Shown: positions 42,363 to 62,193 of the stretch, piece after piece | Layout of the letters: each line of letters opens with the position of its first letter | Position numbering within the stretch: the stretch's first letter is position 1 | From: a virus | Length of the DNA: 64,000 bases | Reading direction: 5' to 3' (one strand) | IMG/VR virus record: IMGVR_UViG_3300008954_002687 | Coordinates: 37,444-101,443 of that record | Notes under the pieces: generated by a model | What the model was told of the DNA's origin: nothing | The model's input: only the letters and a program-made list of their open reading frames with translations | The model's database searches: none | Position numbers and translations under genes: made by a program

Positions 42363-43301
42363 ATGAATAAGAAAGAAGCGAAGAAGATCCTACATGCAGC
42401 AATTGGAAACTACGCAGACAAAGGCAGCGAACTACTTTTCGCGTGCCCGGTCTGCAATCACCACAAGCGTAAGTTCTCTGTTAATCTCGATAAAGGTTTT
42501 TATAAGTGCTGGGTTTGTGATTATCGCGGTCGCAATCTTAGGCGTGTTGTTAGGCGTTTTGGTTCGTATACACAACTACAGAAATGGGACGAAATTACGA
42601 ACAGGTCAGATCTTGAGAGATTTGCTGATCTCTTTATGGAACCAGAGCGTCGAGAAGACGCGGAAAAACCGGAACTCCCGGAAGAATTCGTAAGCCTCTG
42701 TTCGGACAATATCCCCGCCACAGGCATGTATGCGCTTAGATATTTACAAAAGCGCGGACTTACCAAGACGGATATTCTTAAATGGAAAATTGGATATTGT
42801 TTTAGCGGAGAATATCGTAATAGGATTGTTATTCCTTCTTTTGACAGCGAAGGAGACGTAAGTTACTTTGTTGCGAGAGCCTATAACGGCGACTCATACA
42901 AGTATAAGAACCCGAAGGCTTCAAAGAATATTGTATTTAATGAACTATATATCGATTGGAACAAAGACTTAGTTTTAGTCGAAGGAATTTTTGATGCTAT
43001 TATCGCCGGAAACGCTGTACCTATCTTGGGTAGCACGTTACGAACTGGTTCCGAACTGGTCCGAAAAATCGTCACAAACGATACCCCAATCTACATCGCC
43101 CTCGACCCCGATGCGCGAGACAAAGAAAACAAAATCATCAAAACACTTCTTAAATATGATATCGAAATGTATAAGATCGATGTTTCGGACTACGAAGACG
43201 TAGGGTCCATGTCGAAAGAAGTTTTCGAAGAAAGAAAAAAGAACGCTGTATTTATAGATAATGACAACTATTTACTGTTGAATTTGCTATCAGCACTATA
43301 A
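42363..43301 (+). CDS. DNA primase (zinc finger plus Toprim), DnaG/gp61-like
   Basis: 312 residues. A zinc ribbon is seen near the N-terminus (CPVCNHHKRKFS ... YKCWVCDYRG, about residues 25-55), then a region resembling the RNA-polymerase domain (RNRIVIPSFDSEGDVSYFVA, YKYKNPKASKN) and a Toprim-type block with LVLVEGIFDAIIA (about 203-215) and YIALDPDAR (about 244-252). It would prime lagging-strand synthesis, with a helicase not seen in the window. It is shorter than bacterial DnaG and near the T4 gp61 size. It has its own promoter and a leader gene follows 10 bases after its stop. Confidence 0.82.
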   Translation: MNKKEAKKILHAAIGNYADKGSELLFACPVCNHHKRKFSVNLDKGFYKCWVCDYRGRNLRRVVRRFGSYTQLQKWDEITNRSDLERFADLFMEPERREDAEKPELPEEFVSLCSDNIPATGMYALRYLQKRGLTKTDILKWKIGYCFSGEYRNRIVIPSFDSEGDVSYFVARAYNGDSYKYKNPKASKNIVFNELYIDWNKDLVLVEGIFDAIIAGNAVPILGSTLRTGSELVRKIVTNDTPIYIALDPDARDKENKIIKTLLKYDIEMYKIDVSDYEDVGSMSKEVFEERKKNAVFIDNDNYLLLNLLSAL

Positions 43302-45285: not shown

Positions 45286-45307
45286 ACATTTGTGCTCGGA
45301 GGGAAGT

Positions 45308-48300
45308 TTGAAGTTTGCACACATCAGTGACACTCATATCAAAAATTTGAAGTATCACTACGAATATAGAATTGTATTCGAACAATTATACCAGACACTG
45401 CGAGAGCAGGAAGTCGATTACATCGTTCATTGCGGAGATATCGCACACACAAAGACACAGATCTCACCAGAGTTTGTGGAAATGTGTTCTGATTTCTTCC
45501 GCAGTTTAGCGGAGATTGCACCCACATATATTATATTGGGCAACCACGATGGCAATCTAAAGAATAGTAGTCGCCAAGACGCATTGACGCCGATTGTAGA
45601 TGCGTTAAACTTGCCAGCTCTGCATCTGCTCAAAGAATCTGGCGAAACCCACATAGACGATAAGTTCTGTTTGAATGTGCTTTCAGTCTTTGATCGAGAT
45701 AATTGGACAAAGCCAAGCGATACTGATAAAATCAACATCGCCCTGTATCACGGCTCAATCAGCAACTGTAAGACTGACATGAACTGGACAATGAGAAATG
45801 GCGAAGATACTCTAACTATCTTTGAAGACTTTGATTTCGCCATGCTCGGCGATATTCACCGTCGTCAATATTTAGATGAAGTAGGTCGCGTTTGGTATGC
45901 CGGCTCAACTGTACAGCAGAATCATGGCGAAACAAATGATAAGGGGATTCTCATCTGGGATATCCAGTCAAAGGATGATTGGGAAATCGAGCCCATTGTG
46001 CTTAAGAATCCAAAGCCATTCTTTACAATTCCTTTAACGATGAAGGGGCGCATGCCACGCAAGATTGATGTGCCAACCGGCGCTCGTCTGCGCTTGGTGA
46101 GCAACAACAATCTTCCGCTCAATGTGATGAAGCGCGCAATGGATATCGCCAAACACCGATTCAAACCGGAGAGCATCTCGTTTTTGAACAGAGCCACCGG
46201 TGAACGCGGAAATGTTGAAGATATTACAGACGGACTCAAGACCGAGAACTTGCGAGATCCAAAGATTCAGGAAGAACTTATCGATGAGTACCTTAAGGAC
46301 TATCAGGTGCCCTCTGAGACGCTCGAAAAAGTTTATGAACTCAATCGGGCTTACAACAAAATTATTGAGGAGACAGAGGAAGTCTCGCGCAATGTAAACT
46401 GGAAACTTAAGACCTTTGAGTTTGACAATCTGTTTAATTATGGAACAGACAATTCAATTAATTTTGAAAATATGGGTGGTATCATCGGCATCTTTGGAAA
46501 GAACTTTTCCGGAAAGAGTTCTGTGATTGATGCTGCATTATATACTTTGTTTAATACGACGTCCAAGAACGAACGCAAAAACTTAAACGTCATTAATCAG
46601 AACAGAGATTCATGCGCAGGCAAGCTCACTATCGAGTCAAACAATAAGGTCTATACGGTTGAAAGGAAATCAGAGAAGTACGTTAAGAGGCTTAAGGGCG
46701 AGGAAACCCTAGAAGCCAAAACCGATTTGAATTTTGAAGTATATGATCGCATCACCGAAGAAACAACATCTCTGAACGGAACAACGCGAAATCAGACAGA
46801 TGCAATTATCAGAAAGCATTTTGGTTCTATCGATGATTTCATGGTATCTTCGCTAGCCTCGCAGCATGGTGCGTTAGCATTTATTGATGAGGGCTCTACT
46901 CGACGTAAAGAGATCATTGCTAAGTTCTTGGACCTGGAGATTTTTGAAAAGAAGTTTAGGATGTCCAAGGAAGACTCGGTAGAAGCCAAAGTCTTGATTA
47001 AGAAGCACGAAGACCGAGACTATGGGGCAGACATCACCGCCGCCACGAAGGAGTTGAATAAGTATCAGAACAAATCAGAGAAGAACAAGAGCCTCTGTGA
47101 ATCCTTGCGTATTAAGCTTAATACATTGACGGATGTTGTGCGCTTATTGGAAGAACAAATCAAAGCGACTCCCTCGGAAGTGGTGGACATTACTAACTTG
47201 CGCAAAGAGCACAAAAAGAAAGTTAATTCTATTGTTGCTTTGGGCGAAACAATCAAAGAACAATCGCAGTTCATATCTCTCAAGAGCGAGGAAATCGCGG
47301 CAACCGAGAAGCTACTCGGCGCGATAGATCACCAGAAGAACCTTGAGAATAAGTTGTCGATTGAGAAATTAGATGAAACGATTGCCTCGTTAAATCAAGA
47401 ACTAGAGAGTATCGTTAAGAAACAGAAGCTGCTAGAGGGAATCCCGTGCGGTGATTCGTTCCCAACGTGCAAGTTTATTAGAGATGCACACGTCTCAGTT
47501 GCCACAAGGGATATTGCAGCTAACGAGCGCGATAAGTCCATAGAAGCCCGCAGCGCATTAAATCCCGAAGAAATCGAGTTGGAGATTGAAGAACACAACG
47601 CTTTACAAATAAAGTCTTTAAATTTTGAAAAAGAGATTTCTGAGTTGAAGCTTAAGCGAGAGCGCAACAAGGCTACAAAATCTAAGATAGAATTATCTTT
47701 GAAAGATATTACTAATCAAATTAAGGAATACGAAGAAAATAAAGAAGCAATTGAGAATCTTGAGAAACTTATAAAGGAAAAAGATAAGCACCAAAAAGAC
47801 ATGAACAGTAAGCAGAATGAGATAACGACTTGCGAACAAGAGACTTTAGATATCGTTAAACTCGTTGGTTCTTGCGAACAAAAGATTGAAAACTTGCGAG
47901 AGCAACAAACTGAATACAAAGAACTACAGAACTCATATGCAGCCTACGATCTGTTTATGCAGTGCATGCACCCAAACGGAATTGCATACGATGTGATTAA
48001 AAAGAAGATTCCTGTTATCAATCAAGAGATAGCGAAGGTGTTGGCAAATATTGTAGATTTTGAAATTTTCTTTGAGAGTTCTGGTAATAAGTTTGACATC
48101 TTTATCAAGCACCCTCTATACGACGAGCGCCCTATTGAAATGGCGTCTGGCGCAGAGAAAACCATGGCGGCGATGGCAATTCGTTTGGCTCTTCTGAGTG
48201 TCTCTTCACTGCCCAAAAGCGACTTATTCATCCTCGACGAGCCCGGCACAGCATTAGATGAAGAAAATATGGAAGGTTTTATTAGGATCTTAGAACTAAT

Positions 48301-48415
48301 TAAAGTGTATTTTAAGAACGTTTTGTTGATCTCGCACCTTGATTCGCTCAAAGACTGTGTTGACATGCAAATTGTAATTGAAAAGAAAAATGGATATGCA
48401 AGAGTAAACCAATAA
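45308..48415 (+). CDS. Fused SbcD-SbcC (gp47-gp46-like) recombination exonuclease
   Basis: 1,035 residues from TTG 45308, chosen because GGAGGGA (45298-45304) sits just upstream and the protein then begins MKFAHISDTHI. Residues 1-330 are the Mre11/SbcD phosphoesterase: SDTH, HCGDIAHT, LGNHDG, ALYHGS, LGDIHRRQY. From about 370 comes the Rad50/SbcC ATPase: Walker A GKNFSGKSS (about 395-403), coiled coils, a hook-like CGDSFPTC (about 714-721), SGAEKTMAAMAIRLA signature (about 946-960) and Walker B DLFILDEPGTALDEEN. In T4 these are two proteins that resect ends for recombination-dependent replication. Here they are one chain. All catalytic motifs are present. The hook is C-x6-C instead of the usual CxxC. 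Confidence 0.93.
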   Translation: MKFAHISDTHIKNLKYHYEYRIVFEQLYQTLREQEVDYIVHCGDIAHTKTQISPEFVEMCSDFFRSLAEIAPTYIILGNHDGNLKNSSRQDALTPIVDALNLPALHLLKESGETHIDDKFCLNVLSVFDRDNWTKPSDTDKINIALYHGSISNCKTDMNWTMRNGEDTLTIFEDFDFAMLGDIHRRQYLDEVGRVWYAGSTVQQNHGETNDKGILIWDIQSKDDWEIEPIVLKNPKPFFTIPLTMKGRMPRKIDVPTGARLRLVSNNNLPLNVMKRAMDIAKHRFKPESISFLNRATGERGNVEDITDGLKTENLRDPKIQEELIDEYLKDYQVPSETLEKVYELNRAYNKIIEETEEVSRNVNWKLKTFEFDNLFNYGTDNSINFENMGGIIGIFGKNFSGKSSVIDAALYTLFNTTSKNERKNLNVINQNRDSCAGKLTIESNNKVYTVERKSEKYVKRLKGEETLEAKTDLNFEVYDRITEETTSLNGTTRNQTDAIIRKHFGSIDDFMVSSLASQHGALAFIDEGSTRRKEIIAKFLDLEIFEKKFRMSKEDSVEAKVLIKKHEDRDYGADITAATKELNKYQNKSEKNKSLCESLRIKLNTLTDVVRLLEEQIKATPSEVVDITNLRKEHKKKVNSIVALGETIKEQSQFISLKSEEIAATEKLLGAIDHQKNLENKLSIEKLDETIASLNQELESIVKKQKLLEGIPCGDSFPTCKFIRDAHVSVATRDIAANERDKSIEARSALNPEEIELEIEEHNALQIKSLNFEKEISELKLKRERNKATKSKIELSLKDITNQIKEYEENKEAIENLEKLIKEKDKHQKDMNSKQNEITTCEQETLDIVKLVGSCEQKIENLREQQTEYKELQNSYAAYDLFMQCMHPNGIAYDVIKKKIPVINQEIAKVLANIVDFEIFFESSGNKFDIFIKHPLYDERPIEMASGAEKTMAAMAIRLALLSVSSLPKSDLFILDEPGTALDEENMEGFIRILELIKVYFKNVLLISHLDSLKDCVDMQIVIEKKNGYARVNQ

Positions 48416-48427
48416 GGAGTCAACAGC

Positions 48428-48958
48428 ATGAAAATTACCAAATCGCAGCTTCGAAGCGTAATCAGAGAAGAAATAGAAAACACCGTCGATGAGGGTTTTG
48501 TGGACTCTATCAAGGGCGCCCTCGGTCTTGGCGGCAAGAAAGCAGCCCCAGCAGCCGATCCAATGGCAAATGTCCCAGAAGATGAGCGCGAAGACTATGA
48601 AGAATTTCGTAGTGGAGGCGCCGCCGGTCAATTCAAGTGGGAAGATGCCCGAGGACAGAACTTCGACGATACGAGTTCATATGAGGCTTACCAGGACTTC
48701 TTAAAATGGAGAACCAAGCATGTAGCTGACTCCGAACAACATCGACAGGCTCAATGGGATATTGAGCAAGCCAGGAAGAAGCGCGGCTCTGGAAGATCGT
48801 CGTCATCGTCGTCGTCGTATCGACGTGATAAATCCCCTGCCCATCGCGCATCCAGCGCTGTTGGTTCATCTAACCTTGCTTACGGCGAATCCATAGAGAA
48901 GATTAAGGACATTATTAGAGAAGTGCTACAAGAGATTCAAGGAGATAAAAAACAGTGA
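48428..48958 (+). CDS. Leader-A protein with Ser/Arg tract (putative internal head protein, 176 aa)
   Basis: ATG 48428 after AAGGAGTCAACAGC. The N-terminus MKITKSQLRSVIREEIENTV has the leader with I12-R-E14. It then has a Gly/Ala/Lys stretch, a Trp-containing charged helix (DFLKWRTKHVADSEQH), a low-complexity tract (SGRSSSSSSSYRRDKS, about residues 121-137) and a C-terminal helix IEKIKDIIREVLQEI that itself resembles the leader. No enzyme motif. The basic Ser/Arg tract could bind DNA inside the head. It overlaps the next GTG start by four bases. Confidence 0.6.
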   Translation: MKITKSQLRSVIREEIENTVDEGFVDSIKGALGLGGKKAAPAADPMANVPEDEREDYEEFRSGGAAGQFKWEDARGQNFDDTSSYEAYQDFLKWRTKHVADSEQHRQAQWDIEQARKKRGSGRSSSSSSSYRRDKSPAHRASSAVGSSNLAYGESIEKIKDIIREVLQEIQGDKKQ

Positions 48959-49980
48959 AACTTTTAATGGAAAACTGGCGTAAATTTGTTAATGAACAAG
49001 AAGAAGCCGCACAACAAGGATTTGCCCAAATAACTCCCGATACTAATATTGGAGCCGTCAAGGCTGATGAACTCTGGAGGCAGCTTGTGTCCGGACAGGA
49101 GAGTCCGCTCTATAATGCGATGAAAAATGCCACTGGCTGGGCAAGCGGCGTCTTGGGCACCCCAGAACAAGTTAAACAAAGGTTTGGGCAGATTGGACAA
49201 GAAGCCTTCATAGCGAGAGTTCAACAAGTTCAAAAACTGATCTCTACAGCAAAAACAGCTAAATTTAATATGCCTGCTCTGGAGGGCGGAGACGCCGATG
49301 CAGTAGTAGATGCACTAAGCGATCAAGATGGCGCCTTGGGAGTTGATCTAAGTTCGAAATTTGCGAACCAAATCGAAAGCTTTAAAGAGTGGTGGGAGGC
49401 ACTACCCGAGCCGATTAAACAGATGTACGAAGCAGGGAAGATCCCATCTGTAGAACAAGTACAGCAAGCAACCCAACAGACCCCCCAACAAAACGTCAGT
49501 GAAGACAAGTTTCCACGATTTGGAAAAGGTCCAATGCCCGGCGCCCCCGCTGTTGGAGAAAAAGAACAAATCAATCTTAAAAATATTAAGGGCGCCGCAT
49601 TGGCGTTCTTAACCAAAGGGATGCTCGACGGCGCGCCGGGTGACGCTGTAGCCGTTGAAAAAGACGCCGGCGCCACAAACTCAAAAATGATTCCAACGCA
49701 AAGTAATATTTTGGCAGCTAAGTCACTATTATTTGCATACAACAATCCAGCAAAACAACTCAAAGATATGGGCGGAGCCTTTGTCACTAGTGATGGAAAG
49801 ATTCTCGACGGTCACCATCGTTGGTCAGGCGCCCTTATCGGTACCGGTGGTGCACTTCAGCATACCGGCGTTCATATTGTTAAGGCGCCAGCCGATGCAG
49901 TCATCCCTCTTTTGGTTACGGTAGGGAACGCACTTGGTCGCCAGCAAAAGGGTCCCAATCCCGAAGACGAAAACCAGTAA
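48955..49980 (+). CDS. Leader-B protein with ParB/sulfiredoxin-like C-terminal domain (341 aa)
   Basis: GTG 48955 overlaps the previous stop (GTGA). The leader MKLLMENWRKFVNEQEE places Trp8 and Glu14 like the leader of the gene at 51141. The middle (about 30-200) is helical and Gln-rich. The C-terminal part contains GGAFVTSDGKILDGHHRWSG (residues about 263-282) followed by HTGVHIVKAPAD: the DGHHRW core is typical of the ParB/Srx-like fold used by ParB nucleases, sulfiredoxin and some serine kinases. T4 packages the enzyme Alt in its head, and this protein could be an analogous ejected enzyme. Activity and substrate are unknown. Confidence 0.65.
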   Translation: MKLLMENWRKFVNEQEEAAQQGFAQITPDTNIGAVKADELWRQLVSGQESPLYNAMKNATGWASGVLGTPEQVKQRFGQIGQEAFIARVQQVQKLISTAKTAKFNMPALEGGDADAVVDALSDQDGALGVDLSSKFANQIESFKEWWEALPEPIKQMYEAGKIPSVEQVQQATQQTPQQNVSEDKFPRFGKGPMPGAPAVGEKEQINLKNIKGAALAFLTKGMLDGAPGDAVAVEKDAGATNSKMIPTQSNILAAKSLLFAYNNPAKQLKDMGGAFVTSDGKILDGHHRWSGALIGTGGALQHTGVHIVKAPADAVIPLLVTVGNALGRQQKGPNPEDENQ

Positions 49981-49995
49981 AATAAGGAATAAACA

Positions 49996-51144
49996 ATGTC
50001 TGATAACGAAAATAAAGATGACAAAAACGAATTTGATTTTCTGCCTCCCGCAGAGCCACCACCCTCCTTTAATCAGGAGAAAGACCACTATCACGAAGAA
50101 GTCGCAGCAGAGGATTTCGGCATGGTTGAGGACTTCGGTCTCCAGATGGAATATTCTGATGAAGATCTCCTCCCAGAAAACACTGCCCCTTCTTCGATTA
50201 ATGTGGGCTTTGTTGGCGTTGGCGGCGGAGGCAACAAAATGGCGAACGCCTTCATTGAACTTGGATTCAACAAAACACTGATGGTAAACTCCACAGGGAA
50301 AGACATTCCGAAGAACGTCGAAGAAGATCACGTCGTTCTTATCCCCGATAGCGACGGCATCGGAAAGAACGTCGTTTACGGCAAAGAGATTCTTTCCCAA
50401 AATGGCGCCATCGTTGAAGATGCACTTCGTATTAAGCTTGGAAAAGTCGATTGGCTTTTCGTTATGGCTGGTGGAGGCGGCGGAACCGGCAGTTCGGTAA
50501 CCGCGCTGCAGCCAGTCTTCGAAAGATATATGCAATCAGTTCAGGCTTCTGGAAAAGTGGTCTATATTGTTTCTTGGCCAACCGCGCAAGAGGCACTGAA
50601 CCCGACTATCGCTCGCAACGCGCTTACGCTCGTGAATGACGTTGCCCGCCATCCGCACATCGTTCTCGACAACGAACGTGCCACACGATTACTCCGCGGC
50701 AGAATCGGCATGCTTGGCATGTATCCTGTCGCTAACACAACATTTGCTAAGTCACTTGCTCAAGTTTTAAAACTCTCCACCGAGGATTCACCGATCCAAT
50801 CTTTCGATTCTAAAGATTTGGAAACTTGCTTGAGCAATAATGGCAGAGCCTTTATGGGCTCAACAATGATAAAAGATCCAAATACAGCAAAGCTTGGATC
50901 GGTGATCCTTCATAACTGTATGAATCGTTCTGCGTGTCCGCCCCCCAAGGGGAAGGCAGGCGCCGGTTCGTTAGTGTTGGTGGTCTCGGAAGAGATGGTG
51001 GCTGACCCAAAGGTCAGTAAAAACATTGAGTCTGCAATCGCTTATGTCGGCGGTCGGTGCGAGACACTTTTCTCTGGCGTTTACGTGCGCAAGAATGTGC
51101 CCGGATTGATTGCGATACTAAGTATGAATGGATTAGCAACATGA
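49996..51144 (+). CDS. FtsZ/tubulin-superfamily GTPase
   Basis: 382 residues, ribosome site AAGGAAT. An acidic N-terminal extension (about 65 residues) precedes the GTPase. VGFVGVGGGGNKMANAF (about 71-87) matches the FtsZ first loop. AGGGGGTGSS (about 157-166) is the tubulin signature G-box. SFDSKDLETCLSNNGRAFMG (about 269-288) aligns with the FtsZ T7 loop region, keeping two acidic residues needed to activate GTP hydrolysis in the neighbouring subunit. Phage tubulins such as PhuZ position replicating phage DNA. A role in organising the cell or disturbing host FtsZ is possible. The assignment to the superfamily is strong; the role is open. It lacks a head-targeting leader. Confidence 0.87.
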   Translation: MSDNENKDDKNEFDFLPPAEPPPSFNQEKDHYHEEVAAEDFGMVEDFGLQMEYSDEDLLPENTAPSSINVGFVGVGGGGNKMANAFIELGFNKTLMVNSTGKDIPKNVEEDHVVLIPDSDGIGKNVVYGKEILSQNGAIVEDALRIKLGKVDWLFVMAGGGGGTGSSVTALQPVFERYMQSVQASGKVVYIVSWPTAQEALNPTIARNALTLVNDVARHPHIVLDNERATRLLRGRIGMLGMYPVANTTFAKSLAQVLKLSTEDSPIQSFDSKDLETCLSNNGRAFMGSTMIKDPNTAKLGSVILHNCMNRSACPPPKGKAGAGSLVLVVSEEMVADPKVSKNIESAIAYVGGRCETLFSGVYVRKNVPGLIAILSMNGLAT

Positions 51145-55050: not shown

Positions 55051-55308
55051 ATGAAATTCTCCAAATTATACCTTAAGCAGATCATCAAAGAAGAGATCTC
55101 AAGTGTTTTGCGCGAGGGTCATTATCATGATATGGGCGGTGAAGACGAGACATATGATGTCCTCGATCCCCACGGAATCGAAGATATGTCCGATGCTGAG
55201 CTTGTCGACATGATGCATGTAGATGGAATGGAAGAAATGATTGTTCTGGACGGAGAAGGGGATCTTGCAAATCGCGAAGAAGTTATAGCAGCATTGAAAG
55301 ATGTATGA
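55051..55308 (+). CDS. Leader-A protein, small acidic (85 aa)
   Basis: Begins MKFSKLYLKQIIKEEISSVL, a diverged form of the leader that still has I12-K-E14. The rest is strongly acidic and Met/Asp-rich (DMSDAELVDMMHVDGMEEMI, then DLANREEVIAALKDV) and looks like a small helical domain. The stop overlaps the terminase ATG (ATGA), so it is translated just before the terminase. It could be an internal protein or, by position, a small terminase-associated factor. The leader favours the first. Confidence 0.58.
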   Translation: MKFSKLYLKQIIKEEISSVLREGHYHDMGGEDETYDVLDPHGIEDMSDAELVDMMHVDGMEEMIVLDGEGDLANREEVIAALKDV

Positions 55309-56888
55309 CGTTCCAATTAGACAAAAAACAACAAGTTAAAGAAATACTTAAATGCGGGAAGGAACCCGCTTATTTTTTAAAGACTTACGCAAGAATTTCC
55401 CATCCCATGTATGGGCTTATTTTATTTGATACTTATGATTTCCAAGACGACCTTCTTAAAGATTTTAATGATTATCGCTTTAATGTTATTTTAAAGGCGC
55501 GCCAGTTAGGGATTTCAACAATCACTGCTGGCTATATTGTTTGGTTGATGTTGTTTCACCGTGACAAATCAATTCTTGTTATGGCGACCAAATTTGCAAC
55601 AGCGGGCAACTTAGTAAAGAAGGTCAAGGGCGTTATGCGCAACTTGCCAGATTGGCTTAAGATCGCCACAATTGACGTGGATAACCGGACTTCCTTTGAG
55701 CTTTCTAATGGGTCATCTATCAAAGCAGCGTCTACCTCTGGTGATGCCGGTCGTTCTGAGGCACTGTCTTTGCTGGTTCTTGATGAGGCTGCACACATTG
55801 AAGGACTTGAAGAACTGTGGACCGGTCTGTATCCTACACTATCAACTGGTGGGCGATGCATAGCACTTTCAACGCCCAACGGGGTCGGTAACTGGTTCCA
55901 TAAAACATGTATGGATGCTGAAGGCGGCAGCAATAACTTTAACCTTACAACACTCCAGTGGGACGTTCACCCCGAGCGTGATGAAGCTTGGTATAAGAAA
56001 GAAACCAAGAACATGTCAAAACGCCAGATTGCACAAGAGCTTGAGTGCAATTTCAATACTTCTGGCGAGACTGTCATAGACCCTGACTGTATGAAGTGGC
56101 TATTAGAAAATGTTAAAGAGCCAAAGCACAGAACCGGCTTTGATCGCAATTTCTGGATTTGGGAAGAATTCGATCCCACATGTAACTATCTTGCGGTGGC
56201 AGATGTTTCGCGAGGCGATGGCGCTGACTATTCAACATTACACATGATTAAATTAGAGACGCTGGAAATCGTGGGCGAGTATCAAGGGAAGCCAACGCCC
56301 GATATGTATGCAAACTTCTTGAATCAAGTAGGGAGAGAATTTGGAAATGCGATGCTTGTAGTAGAGAACAATAACATCGGTTACACGGTTCTCGATAAAC
56401 TCGTTGAACACGGTTATCCAAATTTGTACTACTCTATTAAGTCTACACATGAGTATATAGAGCAACATCAAGCAGAAGTTAGAAACTCTGCCGTTGCCGG
56501 GTTCACAACCTCAATGAAGACGCGCCCGCTCATCGTTGCGAAATTAGAGGAGTTTATCAGAAACAAACTAATTAAGATATATTCATCTCGCACAATTAAT
56601 GAGATGAAAACTTTTATTTGGAAGAACGGTAAACCACAGGCAATGAAAGGATATCATGATGATCTCATCATGGCGCTAGCGATTGCTTGCTGGGTGAGGG
56701 ACACAGCATTGCAATCAAACGCACGAGACCTAAACTATCAAAAAGCTTTTGTGAATGCCATTGTTACTTCGAAGACTTCTATGAACACTCAAATTAACGG
56801 ACAACAAGGCTACAAAAAAGATAATATTTTTGATAAAATGGGTGAAGCAAAAGAATTATACGATCAGTATAAATGGATTATTAAGTGA
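55305..56888 (+). CDS. Terminase large subunit, gp17-like
   Basis: 527 residues. The ATPase half has a Walker-A-like KARQLGISTITAGY (about residues 62-75), FATAGNLVKKVKG, and Walker B LLVLDEAAHIE (about 155-165), followed by ALSTPNGVGNWF as motif III. The nuclease half starts near 290 with an acidic DVSRGDGADYS, has LVVENNNIGYTVLD, and ends with GYHDDLIMALAIACW (about 449-463). This is the motor that pumps DNA into the prohead and cuts concatemers. The portal gene follows after 8 bases. No intein or insertion seen. Confidence 0.95.
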   Translation: MTFQLDKKQQVKEILKCGKEPAYFLKTYARISHPMYGLILFDTYDFQDDLLKDFNDYRFNVILKARQLGISTITAGYIVWLMLFHRDKSILVMATKFATAGNLVKKVKGVMRNLPDWLKIATIDVDNRTSFELSNGSSIKAASTSGDAGRSEALSLLVLDEAAHIEGLEELWTGLYPTLSTGGRCIALSTPNGVGNWFHKTCMDAEGGSNNFNLTTLQWDVHPERDEAWYKKETKNMSKRQIAQELECNFNTSGETVIDPDCMKWLLENVKEPKHRTGFDRNFWIWEEFDPTCNYLAVADVSRGDGADYSTLHMIKLETLEIVGEYQGKPTPDMYANFLNQVGREFGNAMLVVENNNIGYTVLDKLVEHGYPNLYYSIKSTHEYIEQHQAEVRNSAVAGFTTSMKTRPLIVAKLEEFIRNKLIKIYSSRTINEMKTFIWKNGKPQAMKGYHDDLIMALAIACWVRDTALQSNARDLNYQKAFVNAIVTSKTSMNTQINGQQGYKKDNIFDKMGEAKELYDQYKWIIK

Positions 56889-56896
56889 GGCGATAA

Positions 56897-58924
56897 ATGG
56901 CAAACAACAATAGAAATAAATCAAGAGGCAAAAACCCAGCGAACGAAGACTCAAATCTCTTTAAAGCGCTGACGAGATTGTTCTCGGGACCAATCGTTAA
57001 TTATCGGTCTCAATCCGGTCGCAAGATCCGGCGGCAGCATATGGACAAATATGCTGCACGGTTCAAGTCTGCATCCGGTCAACAGTTTAAGAAAGCCTTA
57101 TACAATCCTCTTGATACAATTGCCACCAATGCAATTGCAAATCAGCGCCGCTCCGAGAGATACATCGATTTTGATCAGATGGAGTATATGCCAGAAATCG
57201 CGTCCTCCATGGATATCTATGCCGATGAGATGACCACCTACTCAGACTTGCGACCGATGCTTAGTATCAAGTGTCCGAATGAAGAAATCAAAGCAGTCTT
57301 AGCAATTCTTTTTGACAACATTCTTAGCCTTCAATACAATCTTTTTGGCTGGGCACGGACAATGTGTAAGTATGGAGACTTCTTTCTCTATCTCGACATT
57401 GATGAGAAGTACGGCATCAAATCAGTTATTGCACTCCCTTCCCCAGAAATCGAACGCTTGGAAGGAGAAGACTCCACGAACCCCAACTATGTGCAATATC
57501 AGTGGAACTCTGCCGGAATGACGTTTGAAAATTGGCAGGTTTGCCATTTCCGTATTCTCGGAAACGACAAGTACATCCCGTACGGCACCTCTATCCTTGA
57601 GCCTGCCCGCCGCATCTGGCGCCAACTGACGCTTATGGAAGATGCGATGATGGCGTATCGTGTTGTTCGGTCTTCCGAGCGCCGAGTGTTCAAGATCGAC
57701 GTAGGCTCGATCCCCCCACAAGATGTCGAGCAGTATATGCAAAAGATTGTAACACAACTCAAGCGCCATTCGGTAGTAGATCCTAGCACAGGTAGAGTGG
57801 ACCTTCGTTATAATCCGATGAGCATCGAAGAAGATTACTTTATTCCAGTGCGCGCTGGCTCTGTCACTGACATTCAAAGTTTAGCCGGCGCACAGAATAT
57901 TACACAGATTGACGATATTAAGTATCTGCGCGATAAACTGTTCTCTGCGTTAAAGATTCCCCAAGCATATCTTGCCATGGGCGAAGGAGCAGCAGAAGAT
58001 AAGACCACACTCGCACAGAAAGACATTCGATTTGCACGCACAGTCCAGAGGCTTCAGCGCGTTATTATCGCTGAACTAGAAAAGATATCTATTATTCATC
58101 TTTATACTTTAGGATTCCGCGGCGACGACCTGTTAAGCTTCAAATTGGCACTCAACAATCCGTCCAAGATTGCAGAGCTTCAAGAAGTGGAACACTGGAA
58201 AGCTAAGTTTGATATTGCCGGCGCAGCCACCGAGGGTTACTTCTCTCGTCGTTGGGTTGCTGATAACATCTTTGGCTTGTCTCACGAAGAATTCGCGCGA
58301 AACCAGAAAGAAATGTATTACGACCGTAAGCACGATGCAGCACTCCAAGCTGTTGCCGAAGGCGGCGAAGCCGCAGCAGGCGGCGGAGGACTCGGCGGAG
58401 GACTCGGCGGAGGACTTGGTGGTGACCTCGGTGGCGGTGACCTCGGGGGAGATGATCTTGGAGGCGGAGACGATCTGGGCGGTGATCTGGGCGGTCCGGA
58501 AGAGATGCCGGCAGGTGATGCTGGTGGAGGCGCCGAGGGCGGAGGAGAAGAGTCTCCACTTCTCGCAGTTCCCCCGGGATCGCGAAATGAGCCCCGTCTT
58601 ACTCCGGGCGCAAAGGGGAAAGTATATCACCCCACCACTATCGATCAGCGAAAGGCTGGAGCCCGAAAACGCTCAAATGCCGCTAAATATTCTAGAGAAA
58701 AAGCCAGCGCCACACTGCGAAACGTTTTCCCCGGCGCGGAGATCAACAAGATCCCCAGCGCAGCAGCAGGGATTTACGAGCAAGAACAGTCTATTTATAA
58801 CTTGAGAGAACAAACCGAAGAAGATAAGTTGTTTAACATCAATGATTCTCTTAGGGTATTGATCCAAGATTTAGAAAATAAAAAATTATTAACGGAGCAG
58901 AAGAAAGATGAAGACAAAACATAA
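56897..58924 (+). CDS. Portal protein, gp20-like
   Basis: 675 residues, longer than T4 gp20 (about 524). Recognisable blocks: a basic N-terminus, RRSERYIDFDQMEYMPEIAS (about 79-98), FGWARTMCKYGDFFLYLDID and IAELEKISIIHLYTLGFRGD. It forms the dodecameric ring for DNA entry at one head vertex and binds the terminase. Residues about 490-540 are a Gly/Asp-rich insertion (repeats of LGGG, then DLGGD) encoded in part by 12-base tandem repeats. A further helical tail contains several I/L-x-E triplets, which could be trimmed by the prohead protease. Confidence 0.93.
   Translation: MANNNRNKSRGKNPANEDSNLFKALTRLFSGPIVNYRSQSGRKIRRQHMDKYAARFKSASGQQFKKALYNPLDTIATNAIANQRRSERYIDFDQMEYMPEIASSMDIYADEMTTYSDLRPMLSIKCPNEEIKAVLAILFDNILSLQYNLFGWARTMCKYGDFFLYLDIDEKYGIKSVIALPSPEIERLEGEDSTNPNYVQYQWNSAGMTFENWQVCHFRILGNDKYIPYGTSILEPARRIWRQLTLMEDAMMAYRVVRSSERRVFKIDVGSIPPQDVEQYMQKIVTQLKRHSVVDPSTGRVDLRYNPMSIEEDYFIPVRAGSVTDIQSLAGAQNITQIDDIKYLRDKLFSALKIPQAYLAMGEGAAEDKTTLAQKDIRFARTVQRLQRVIIAELEKISIIHLYTLGFRGDDLLSFKLALNNPSKIAELQEVEHWKAKFDIAGAATEGYFSRRWVADNIFGLSHEEFARNQKEMYYDRKHDAALQAVAEGGEAAAGGGGLGGGLGGGLGGDLGGGDLGGDDLGGGDDLGGDLGGPEEMPAGDAGGGAEGGGEESPLLAVPPGSRNEPRLTPGAKGKVYHPTTIDQRKAGARKRSNAAKYSREKASATLRNVFPGAEINKIPSAAAGIYEQEQSIYNLREQTEEDKLFNINDSLRVLIQDLENKKLLTEQKKDEDKT
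58382..58417 (+). repeat. Three tandem 12-base repeats in the portal gene
   Basis: GGCGGAGGACTC occurs at 58382, 58394 and 58406 (last copy ends in T). It is followed to about 58500 by degenerate GGTGACCTCG-type units. In frame they encode a Gly/Leu then Gly/Asp tract. Slippage-prone, so length may vary among relatives. Confidence 0.8.
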
Positions 58925-61542: not shown

Positions 61543-61587
61543 ATGGATGCTGCAGCCCGTTAGGCGTTGCTGCAAAGGATCCTAACT

Positions 61588-62193
61588 GTGGGTCAGAAGT
61601 TACTTAGAGAATATTATGAACTCTGCGAAGGCGGCATTTGTCAAGACTTGCTGACTGAAGAAGAGAAGGCATATGTCGCTGATGGCGGCATGTACCTTAC
61701 TGGAATTATTCAGAAAGCAGACACAGTTAACGGCAACGGTCGAGTTTATCCTCACAAGGTCCTCATGCGCGAGATAAAGAACTATGAAAAATTAGTTAGC
61801 GAGCGCCGAGCTTTGGGAGAGTTGGACCACCCTGACGACTCTGTGATCAACCTTAAGAACGCGTCCCACATGATGACCAAAGTTTGGTGGGACGGCAAAA
61901 ATGTGATGGGCAAAGCCAAAGTGCTCGATACTCCGTCCGGTCAGGTCTTAAATTCCCTAGTGAAAGCCGGCGTAAGCATCGGCATTTCGTCTCGGGGAAT
62001 GGGTTCTGTATCGGAATCCGCCGGCAACACAGTTGTTGAAGACGATTTCCAGCTTATCTGCTTTGATTTTGTATCTGAACCTTCCACGCCCGGCGCCTTT
62101 ATGATGAAAGAAGCTAAAGGATACACCAACAGAGTGTTCACCAAAGCGGACCGCATCAACAGATTATTAAACGAGGTACTTGAAGATGAGTGA
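61588..62193 (+). CDS. Prohead core protease, gp21-type
   Basis: I take GTG 61588, which has AAAGGA at a 7-base distance, over TTG 61567; the product is 201 residues, close to T4 gp21. The diagnostic blocks are NGNGRVYPHKVL, RALGELDHPDDSVINLKNAS (His81 as catalytic His), and GVSIGISSRGMGSV (Ser134 or Ser135 as nucleophile), followed by FDFVSEPSTPGAFM. The enzyme cleaves scaffold, capsid and internal proteins after [L/I]-x-E during head maturation. Its presence next to many proteins with I-x-E leaders underlies the main hypothesis of this annotation. Overlaps the next gene by 8 bases. Confidence 0.92.
   Translation: MGQKLLREYYELCEGGICQDLLTEEEKAYVADGGMYLTGIIQKADTVNGNGRVYPHKVLMREIKNYEKLVSERRALGELDHPDDSVINLKNASHMMTKVWWDGKNVMGKAKVLDTPSGQVLNSLVKAGVSIGISSRGMGSVSESAGNTVVEDDFQLICFDFVSEPSTPGAFMMKEAKGYTNRVFTKADRINRLLNEVLEDE

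Follow-up and report, generated by a model that had tools for sequence, protein, structure and literature searches.

Studies of phage cytoskeletons have dealt almost wholly with nucleus-forming phages, in which the tubulin PhuZ sets the position of the shell and transports capsids. Tubulin-like genes have also been reported more widely: marine jumbo phage cluster B uniquely combines a shell protein with a tubulin (PMC9123017), a circular environmental phage contig encodes a homolog of FtsZ but no shell protein that could be found (PMC7452251), and hot-spring viruses contribute tubulin/FtsZ protein clusters (PMC8597652), with further prior work in PMC7824862, PMC10299810, PMC7162821 and PMC12908238. 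TubZ partition systems are known from phages and plasmids (PMC7950403). The only precedents found for the genes considered here are general ones, namely scattered large phages with a tubulin and a single environmental FtsZ-encoding phage without a shell protein; in the open-access papers searched no description of the family itself was found.

The gene described below comes from viral record IMGVR_UViG_3300008954_002687 (101,443 bp). The window, by which is meant the whole 64,000-nucleotide stretch analysed, covers positions 37,444-101,443 of that record and has 45.6% G+C. The best reading of the gene is that it represents a further group of phage tubulins, a family of its own within the tubulin/FtsZ superfamily. 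An earlier sequence-only reading had recognized an FtsZ-type GTPase in a phage with T4-type head genes; beyond this, the present analysis finds a large phage family and an N-terminal tail motif at fixed spacing.

The gene and its active site

The gene and the positions expected to bind and hydrolyze nucleotide are as follows, with invariance given over an alignment of 187 rows (186 distinct sequences and the window protein itself, to which one of the 186, L015, is identical).

49996..51144, forward strand: tubulin/FtsZ-superfamily GTPase gene, 382 aa, ATG start (PF00091 above cut-off; AlphaFold2 model with a CetZ/TubZ/FtsZ fold)
50215..50241, forward strand: T1 G-box GVGGGGNKM, residues 74-82 (G74, G76, G77, G79 and K81 in 187/187 rows)
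50467..50493, forward strand: T4 tubulin signature AGGGGGTGS, residues 158-166 (G161-S166 in 187/187 rows)
50671..50736, forward strand: stretch whose two end residues are the guanine-contact positions N226 and N247 (187/187 rows)
50797..50823, forward strand: T7 catalytic loop QSFDSKDLE, residues 268-276 (D271 and D274 in 187/187 rows)

The open reading frame is intact and is preceded by a ribosome-binding-site-like AAGGA. Pfam PF00091 matches residues 71-229 (35.6 bits, above the cut-off of 33; E 1.4e-8) and the NCBIfam ftsZ profile (TIGR00065) matches residues 62-300 (E 9.3e-14), in agreement with the earlier call of an FtsZ-type GTPase with both a G-box and a T7 loop; the latter match, at 51.5 bits, lies below the equivalog cut-off of 295.2. 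In a comparison of the single protein with the PDB, FtsZ chains came out on top (E 9.8e-11), in an alignment that spans the T7 loop. The three motifs quoted in the sequence-only reading are present letter for letter at residues 73-86, 158-167 and 269-288.

N226 and N247 align opposite the Asn of FtsZ PNDR and the AND/ADN/ANN position, and we take them to be guanine contacts on the strength of FtsZ and tubulin structures and biochemistry; a supposed loss of the guanine contact made by FtsZ D187 was ruled out, the wider alignment having Asn there. The T7 loop aligns with FtsZ NVDFADV/NLDFADV, so that D271 and D274 correspond to both Asp residues of the loop, presumably the catalytic ones, again going by FtsZ and tubulin biochemistry. 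In terms of the FtsZ N-x-D-x-x-D loop, both Asp are kept in 187/187 rows, and at the position of the first Asn the family has S, T, A or V. The gene is under purifying selection (median dN/dS 0.045 in the near clade, from 103 usable of 150 random pairs), and a degenerate copy is ruled out by this low ratio together with the invariant active-site residues. Sequence evidence for a working GTPase of a filament-forming superfamily is strong, and the earlier view that the protein looks competent to polymerize gains from the alignment: nucleotide-binding and T7 residues invariant in 187/187 rows are as expected of a polymerizing GTPase.

An acidic tail at the N-terminus

49996..50193, forward strand: acidic N-terminal tail, residues 1-66 (modelled with low confidence, pLDDT about 42-55 over residues 1-50)
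50110..50139, forward strand: tail motif EDFGMVEDFG, residues 39-48, with family form DDFDFV-x-x-Y (conserved in the family)

The acidic N-terminal extension that had been remarked on as unusual is real and conserved. The region up to residue 70 ranges from 32 to 139 aa across the family, and over the 187 aligned rows the extension has a median of 29% Asp plus Glu and a net charge of -16. A relaxed pattern for the tail motif is found in 182/187 rows and a stricter one in 170/187; all 170 stricter matches end 21-22 residues ahead of residue 70, a fixed spacing, while composition-shuffled tails gave 0.045 matches on average and 1 at most. Because the sequences are related rather than independent, the 170 matches represent conservation and not 170 separate events. 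The tail is under constraint similar to that on the GTPase domain (dN 0.035 and 0.041, respectively, in the near clade).

At the other end, 0-7 residues follow G379 in 187/187 rows and the protein ends past the last strand; it is therefore without the C-terminal linker or conserved terminal peptide (FtsA/ZipA) of FtsZ. With no C-terminal linker or tail, the N-terminal tail becomes the place where partners would dock, and we infer that the DDFDFV-x-x-Y motif may be the docking site.

Gene neighborhood

42363-43301: primase (PHROGs)
45290..48415, forward strand: recombination nuclease subunit of SbcC/gp46 type, lying upstream of tubulin (phrog_77, E 7.4e-54)
55305..56888, forward strand: terminase large subunit, TerL (phrog_2, E 7.6e-55)
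56897..58924, forward strand: T4-like gp20-type portal (phrog_213, E 9.4e-72)
61567..62193, forward strand: T4-like prohead protease (phrog_207, E 2.8e-57)

The T4-type head genes noticed earlier near the tubulin gene were identified by PHROGs as TerL, a gp20-type portal and a prohead protease, and many sister loci also have an SbcC/gp46-like gene. In 14 of 59 family representatives tubulin shares its locus with a major head protein of T4 type, and in 7 of 59 with TerL. This placement among head and packaging genes suggests late action. The T4-type late promoter TATAAATA has seven matches in the window, none near the tubulin gene, and was found in 0/58 other representatives within 250 nt upstream of that gene; the suggestion of late timing comes from gene context. 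Going by terminase, the closest cultured phages are Flavobacterium phage immuto and Microcystis phage Mel-JY01 (44-48% identity), and PF00091 matches nothing in either; it does match in Bacillus phage G, and weakly, below cut-off, in the uncultured 484-kb phage LR756508.

Several other features of these neighborhoods were observed. A PhoH-like gene lies downstream of tubulin in 22/59 representatives (L452, L407, L420 and others; median offset 396 bases), and a family with a GroEL-like representative lies upstream in 15/59. For one neighbor family in relatives, guessed by eye to be a tail sheath, PHROGs gave no such match (0 families). The gene immediately upstream in the window (48955-49980) contains DGKILDGHHRWSGALI, which by eye resembles a ParB/sulfiredoxin-fold motif; it has a weak PHROG match only (E 1.4e-4) and no Pfam match. 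As a candidate tubulin partner this gene was rejected, being present only in four window-identical loci of 17 checked. Many small neighbors between 43312 and 55308 start with MKITKxQLKxIIxEE (43977, 44888, 48428, 51956, 54191, 55051), and ENWRKF/Y (48955, 51141) and DPRYFMDEK (43354, 51658) also recur as start peptides. The three recurring start peptides finish in hxE-like sites, and we take them to resemble the T4 capsid-targeting sequences cleaved by gp21-type protease, in which case the small neighbors may be packaged internal proteins.

A full-length tmRNA (RF00023) is encoded upstream of tubulin in L404, L405, L407, L413, L420, L430, L436, L445, L456 and L474, in several relatives only 25-70 bases from the tubulin gene, with tags such as ANDNVEFDYALAA. 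ARAGORN detected tmRNA in 10/21 loci scanned and Rfam in 12/12 chosen loci, two of them cut by contig ends. In a 195-kb sister phage (contig G002), which also has seven tRNAs, the tmRNA (L519:5525-5864, tag ANNNNYFEQRLAA) is away from tubulin. The window has neither tmRNA nor tRNA.

Distribution and allele pattern

An initial search of viral contigs yielded 182 relatives, of which the top 80 have 88-100% identity. Successive outward scans gave at least 398 loci with a tubulin match, at least 352 that passed a filter for full length, and at least 186 distinct IMG/VR sequences, the count used here being restricted to distinct sequences because many loci overlap on one contig. Identity of these to the window protein goes as low as about 46%, and family contigs reach 293,409 bp. 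Each of the long contigs tested has one tubulin copy (12/12, made up of 5/5 and 7/7). Of 80 TerL loci fetched, 17 have at least 4.8 kb upstream, and tubulin is present in 16 of these, four truncated at the contig end; in the remaining one (L328) the small-gene array is enlarged and the contig stops before the place expected for tubulin. Among 50,697 phage records tubulin matched Bacillus phage G only (two records, 23% identity); plasmid sequences gave no match, and neither did a first scan of genome contigs.

In 48 distinct locus pairs with TerL at least 85% identical to that of the window, tubulin is at least 85% identical in 39 and 55-70% identical in nine, with no pair at 70-85%; as tubulin and terminase served as the queries by which loci were collected, these allele proportions are not population frequencies. 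Tubulins at least 85% identical are also found in pairs with terminases down to 77% (85 distinct pairs overall). The two-peaked distribution suggests that two tubulin lineages may have been exchanged between close phages. PhuZ incompatibility between co-infecting phages is described in PMC13282480, and it could be speculated that the tubulin allele exchange is linked to incompatibility of this type.

Predicted fold and phylogenetic position

An AlphaFold2 model built with 61 sequences (pLDDT 89.5, pTM 0.83) replaced an earlier one from 14 near-identical sequences (pLDDT 48.3). The new model matches structures of CetZ, TubZ and FtsZ at Z 32 to 27 overall. In VIA-align 2, where rows no more than 1 Z apart are counted as tied, the values are Z 32.1 for a CetZ2 protofilament (rmsd 2.6, 292 aligned, ~21% identity), Z 31.9 for TubZ (rmsd 2.3, 310 aligned), with 31.6 for a TubZ protofilament, and Z 29.1 for FtsZ (rmsd 3.0, 293 aligned, ~20% identity). 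No PDB PhuZ chain is among the best 50 VIA matches listed, which is no proof of difference. The top predicted viral structure is A0A6J5RW92 (15% identity), named FtsZ and from an uncultured Caudovirales phage, so phage FtsZ-like proteins are in UniProt already; Noxifer PhuZ is a weaker match among predicted viral proteins (TM 0.48 by query length), and all ten significant matches of this kind are at most 17% identical to the window protein. In profile comparison the family matches phage G at E 7.5e-12, FtsZ at 1.5e-10 over 297 columns and PhuZ at 2.2e-8 over 140 columns.

The tree has 52 rows, with TubZ left out and CetZ present as one fragment row on a long branch. The family forms one clade (support 98/99), as do PhuZ (100/100) and, more weakly, FtsZ (86/74), with long stems throughout. 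AU tests reject two groupings of the family, one with E. coli FtsZ (p 0.00025), the other with flavobacterial FtsZ (p 0.0006; rows L186, L195 and L203, a label based on how long their C-terminal regions are and on where the search was centred, the rows belonging to the phylum of the MAG discussed below), and reject neither the family with PhuZ (p 0.43) nor the family with phage G (p 0.36). A recent capture of a host ftsZ is thereby ruled out for the sampled FtsZ, and the case that would have overturned the sequence-only reading, an inactivated piece of host ftsZ acquired recently, is not seen: the rejected groupings are accompanied by intact residues. That reading had also placed the protein closer to FtsZ than to PhuZ; this holds for signature, profiles and fold and does not extend to the tree, in which a grouping with PhuZ is compatible with the data.

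Phage nucleus and host

Whether these phages form a nucleus-like compartment had been raised earlier, and nothing detected here points to one. A phiKZ chimallin query (E up to 0.1) found no match in nine long relatives, although with 2/3 controls recovered (Aphrodite1 was missed) a divergent shell is possible, and a phiKZ RNA polymerase beta subunit query likewise gave 0/9, with 3/3 controls recovered. The nine contigs are classed as linear and may be incomplete.

One 14,977-bp family contig is in a Flavobacteriaceae MAG, which makes 1 of 299 Flavobacteriaceae genomes. A Shine-Dalgarno core is found at 30/38 window gene starts against 4.9 expected, the 38 being hand-picked from 49 listed genes with TTG and doubtful starts dropped; for Flavobacterium phage immuto the figure is 0/34. 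Bacteroidota rarely use Shine-Dalgarno sites. The Shine-Dalgarno frequency argues against a Flavobacteriaceae/Bacteroidota host despite the one MAG contig, which is likelier to be mis-binned. Judging from IMG sample numbers, family samples are presumably mostly marine.

Possible roles

We favor, with moderate confidence, a filament driven by GTP that would act late in infection and, with no phage nucleus involved, position phage DNA or capsids. As in FtsZ and TubZ, each subunit of the head-to-tail stack would supply its T7 loop (D271, D274) to complete the neighboring subunit's GTPase site; GTP hydrolysis would drive filament turnover, and the DDFDFV-x-x-Y motif of the acidic N-terminal tail would let partners dock. 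Late in infection such filaments could position or move capsids or phage DNA, much as PhuZ does but without a chimallin shell. Three observations weigh against this picture: the first Asn of the FtsZ-type T7 loop is replaced, the T4-type late promoter is missing near the gene, and the chimallin query missed one of its three controls.

Rather unlikely, though the best placed of the alternatives, is that the protein blocks host division by joining or poisoning the host Z-ring or titrating its partners, so that division stops and the infected cell enlarges. Small FtsZ inhibitors are encoded by other phages, the core and the T4 and T7 loops are FtsZ-like (VIA Z about 29), and the acidic-aromatic tail could conceivably mimic a docking peptide. 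However, the family has no FtsZ C-terminal tail, about 20% identity to FtsZ makes copolymerization unlikely, the gene sits among head genes, and catalytic residues that a poison subunit would not need are strictly kept.

It is more doubtful still that the gene belongs to a TubZ-type partition system segregating a plasmid-like phage genome in pseudolysogeny. TubZ is among the top fold matches (Z 31.9) and there are the known phage and plasmid systems mentioned at the outset, but no iteron-like array or centromere was seen around the tubulin gene, no TubR-like helix-turn-helix partner was recognizable by Pfam among ten neighbors, and the gene lies among the head genes of a T4-like phage. An accessory role in head assembly or packaging, with the GTPase at the prohead or terminase instead of in a cytoplasmic filament, would fit the nearness to TerL and portal in the window's clade and, for 14/59 representatives, to the major head protein, but is the least probable, since every longitudinal-contact hallmark of filament-forming relatives is retained and the protein is without the capsid-targeting-like N-terminal peptide seen in its neighbors.

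The late, GTP-driven filament can be placed in a wider proposal, which we put forward somewhat more tentatively: that these proteins make up a third large phage-tubulin group beside PhuZ and TubZ, near-core in a widespread group of T4-like and jumbo phages, acting as a GTP-driven cytoskeleton that, with no chimallin nucleus, would organize capsids or replicating DNA and recruit cargo via an acidic tail that is N-terminal instead of C-terminal. The exchange of divergent alleles between close phages would then count as a compatibility trait, in line with what has been reported for PhuZ. An intact, strictly conserved tubulin in T4-like phages without a detectable shell would separate tubulin from nucleus, so that the purpose of a phage tubulin without a nucleus would become testable, and suggests that viruses beyond the well-studied nucleus-forming phages may build cell scaffolds too. 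It would also be an independent example, within the tubulin superfamily, of a docking tail at the N-terminus.

Comparison with known systems

PhuZ (phiKZ/201phi2-1-type, Chimalliviridae) is likewise a phage tubulin of large phages with a D-x-x-D T7 loop. Its signature is GGASGS, GGGSGS or GASGS, whereas that of the window family is GGGGGTGS; the window family has its tail at the N-terminus and none at the C-terminus, its head genes are T4-like, no chimallin or phiKZ-type RNA polymerase beta subunit was detected, and PhuZ of 201phi2-1 matches the family profile at only E 5.8e-4. FtsZ shares the T1, T4 and T7 loops, the fold and the 297-column profile alignment, but the equivalog score and the missing C-terminal linker and peptide set the family apart: from these two findings the protein is not an FtsZ, and from its different signature it is not a PhuZ. 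TubZ is close in fold and in profile (E 1.4e-14), but here no TubR-like partner or iterons were recognized and the protein ends past the last strand. Archaeal CetZ has the top fold score, tied with TubZ, and the best PDB profile match (3zid, E 5.4e-18), but identity is about 21%, and the window protein is phage-encoded and has its tail at the N-terminus. Bacillus phage G gp138 (a putative FtsZ-like protein by annotation) and the IMG/VR sequence L165 are FtsZ-like GTPases with a FDKNDL T7 loop, but have no N-terminal tail, a longer C-terminal region and about 23% identity to the window protein. The trees are compatible with more than one branching order of the family, FtsZ, phage G and PhuZ, and it is a fair statement that the family is more similar to FtsZ, CetZ and TubZ than to PhuZ.
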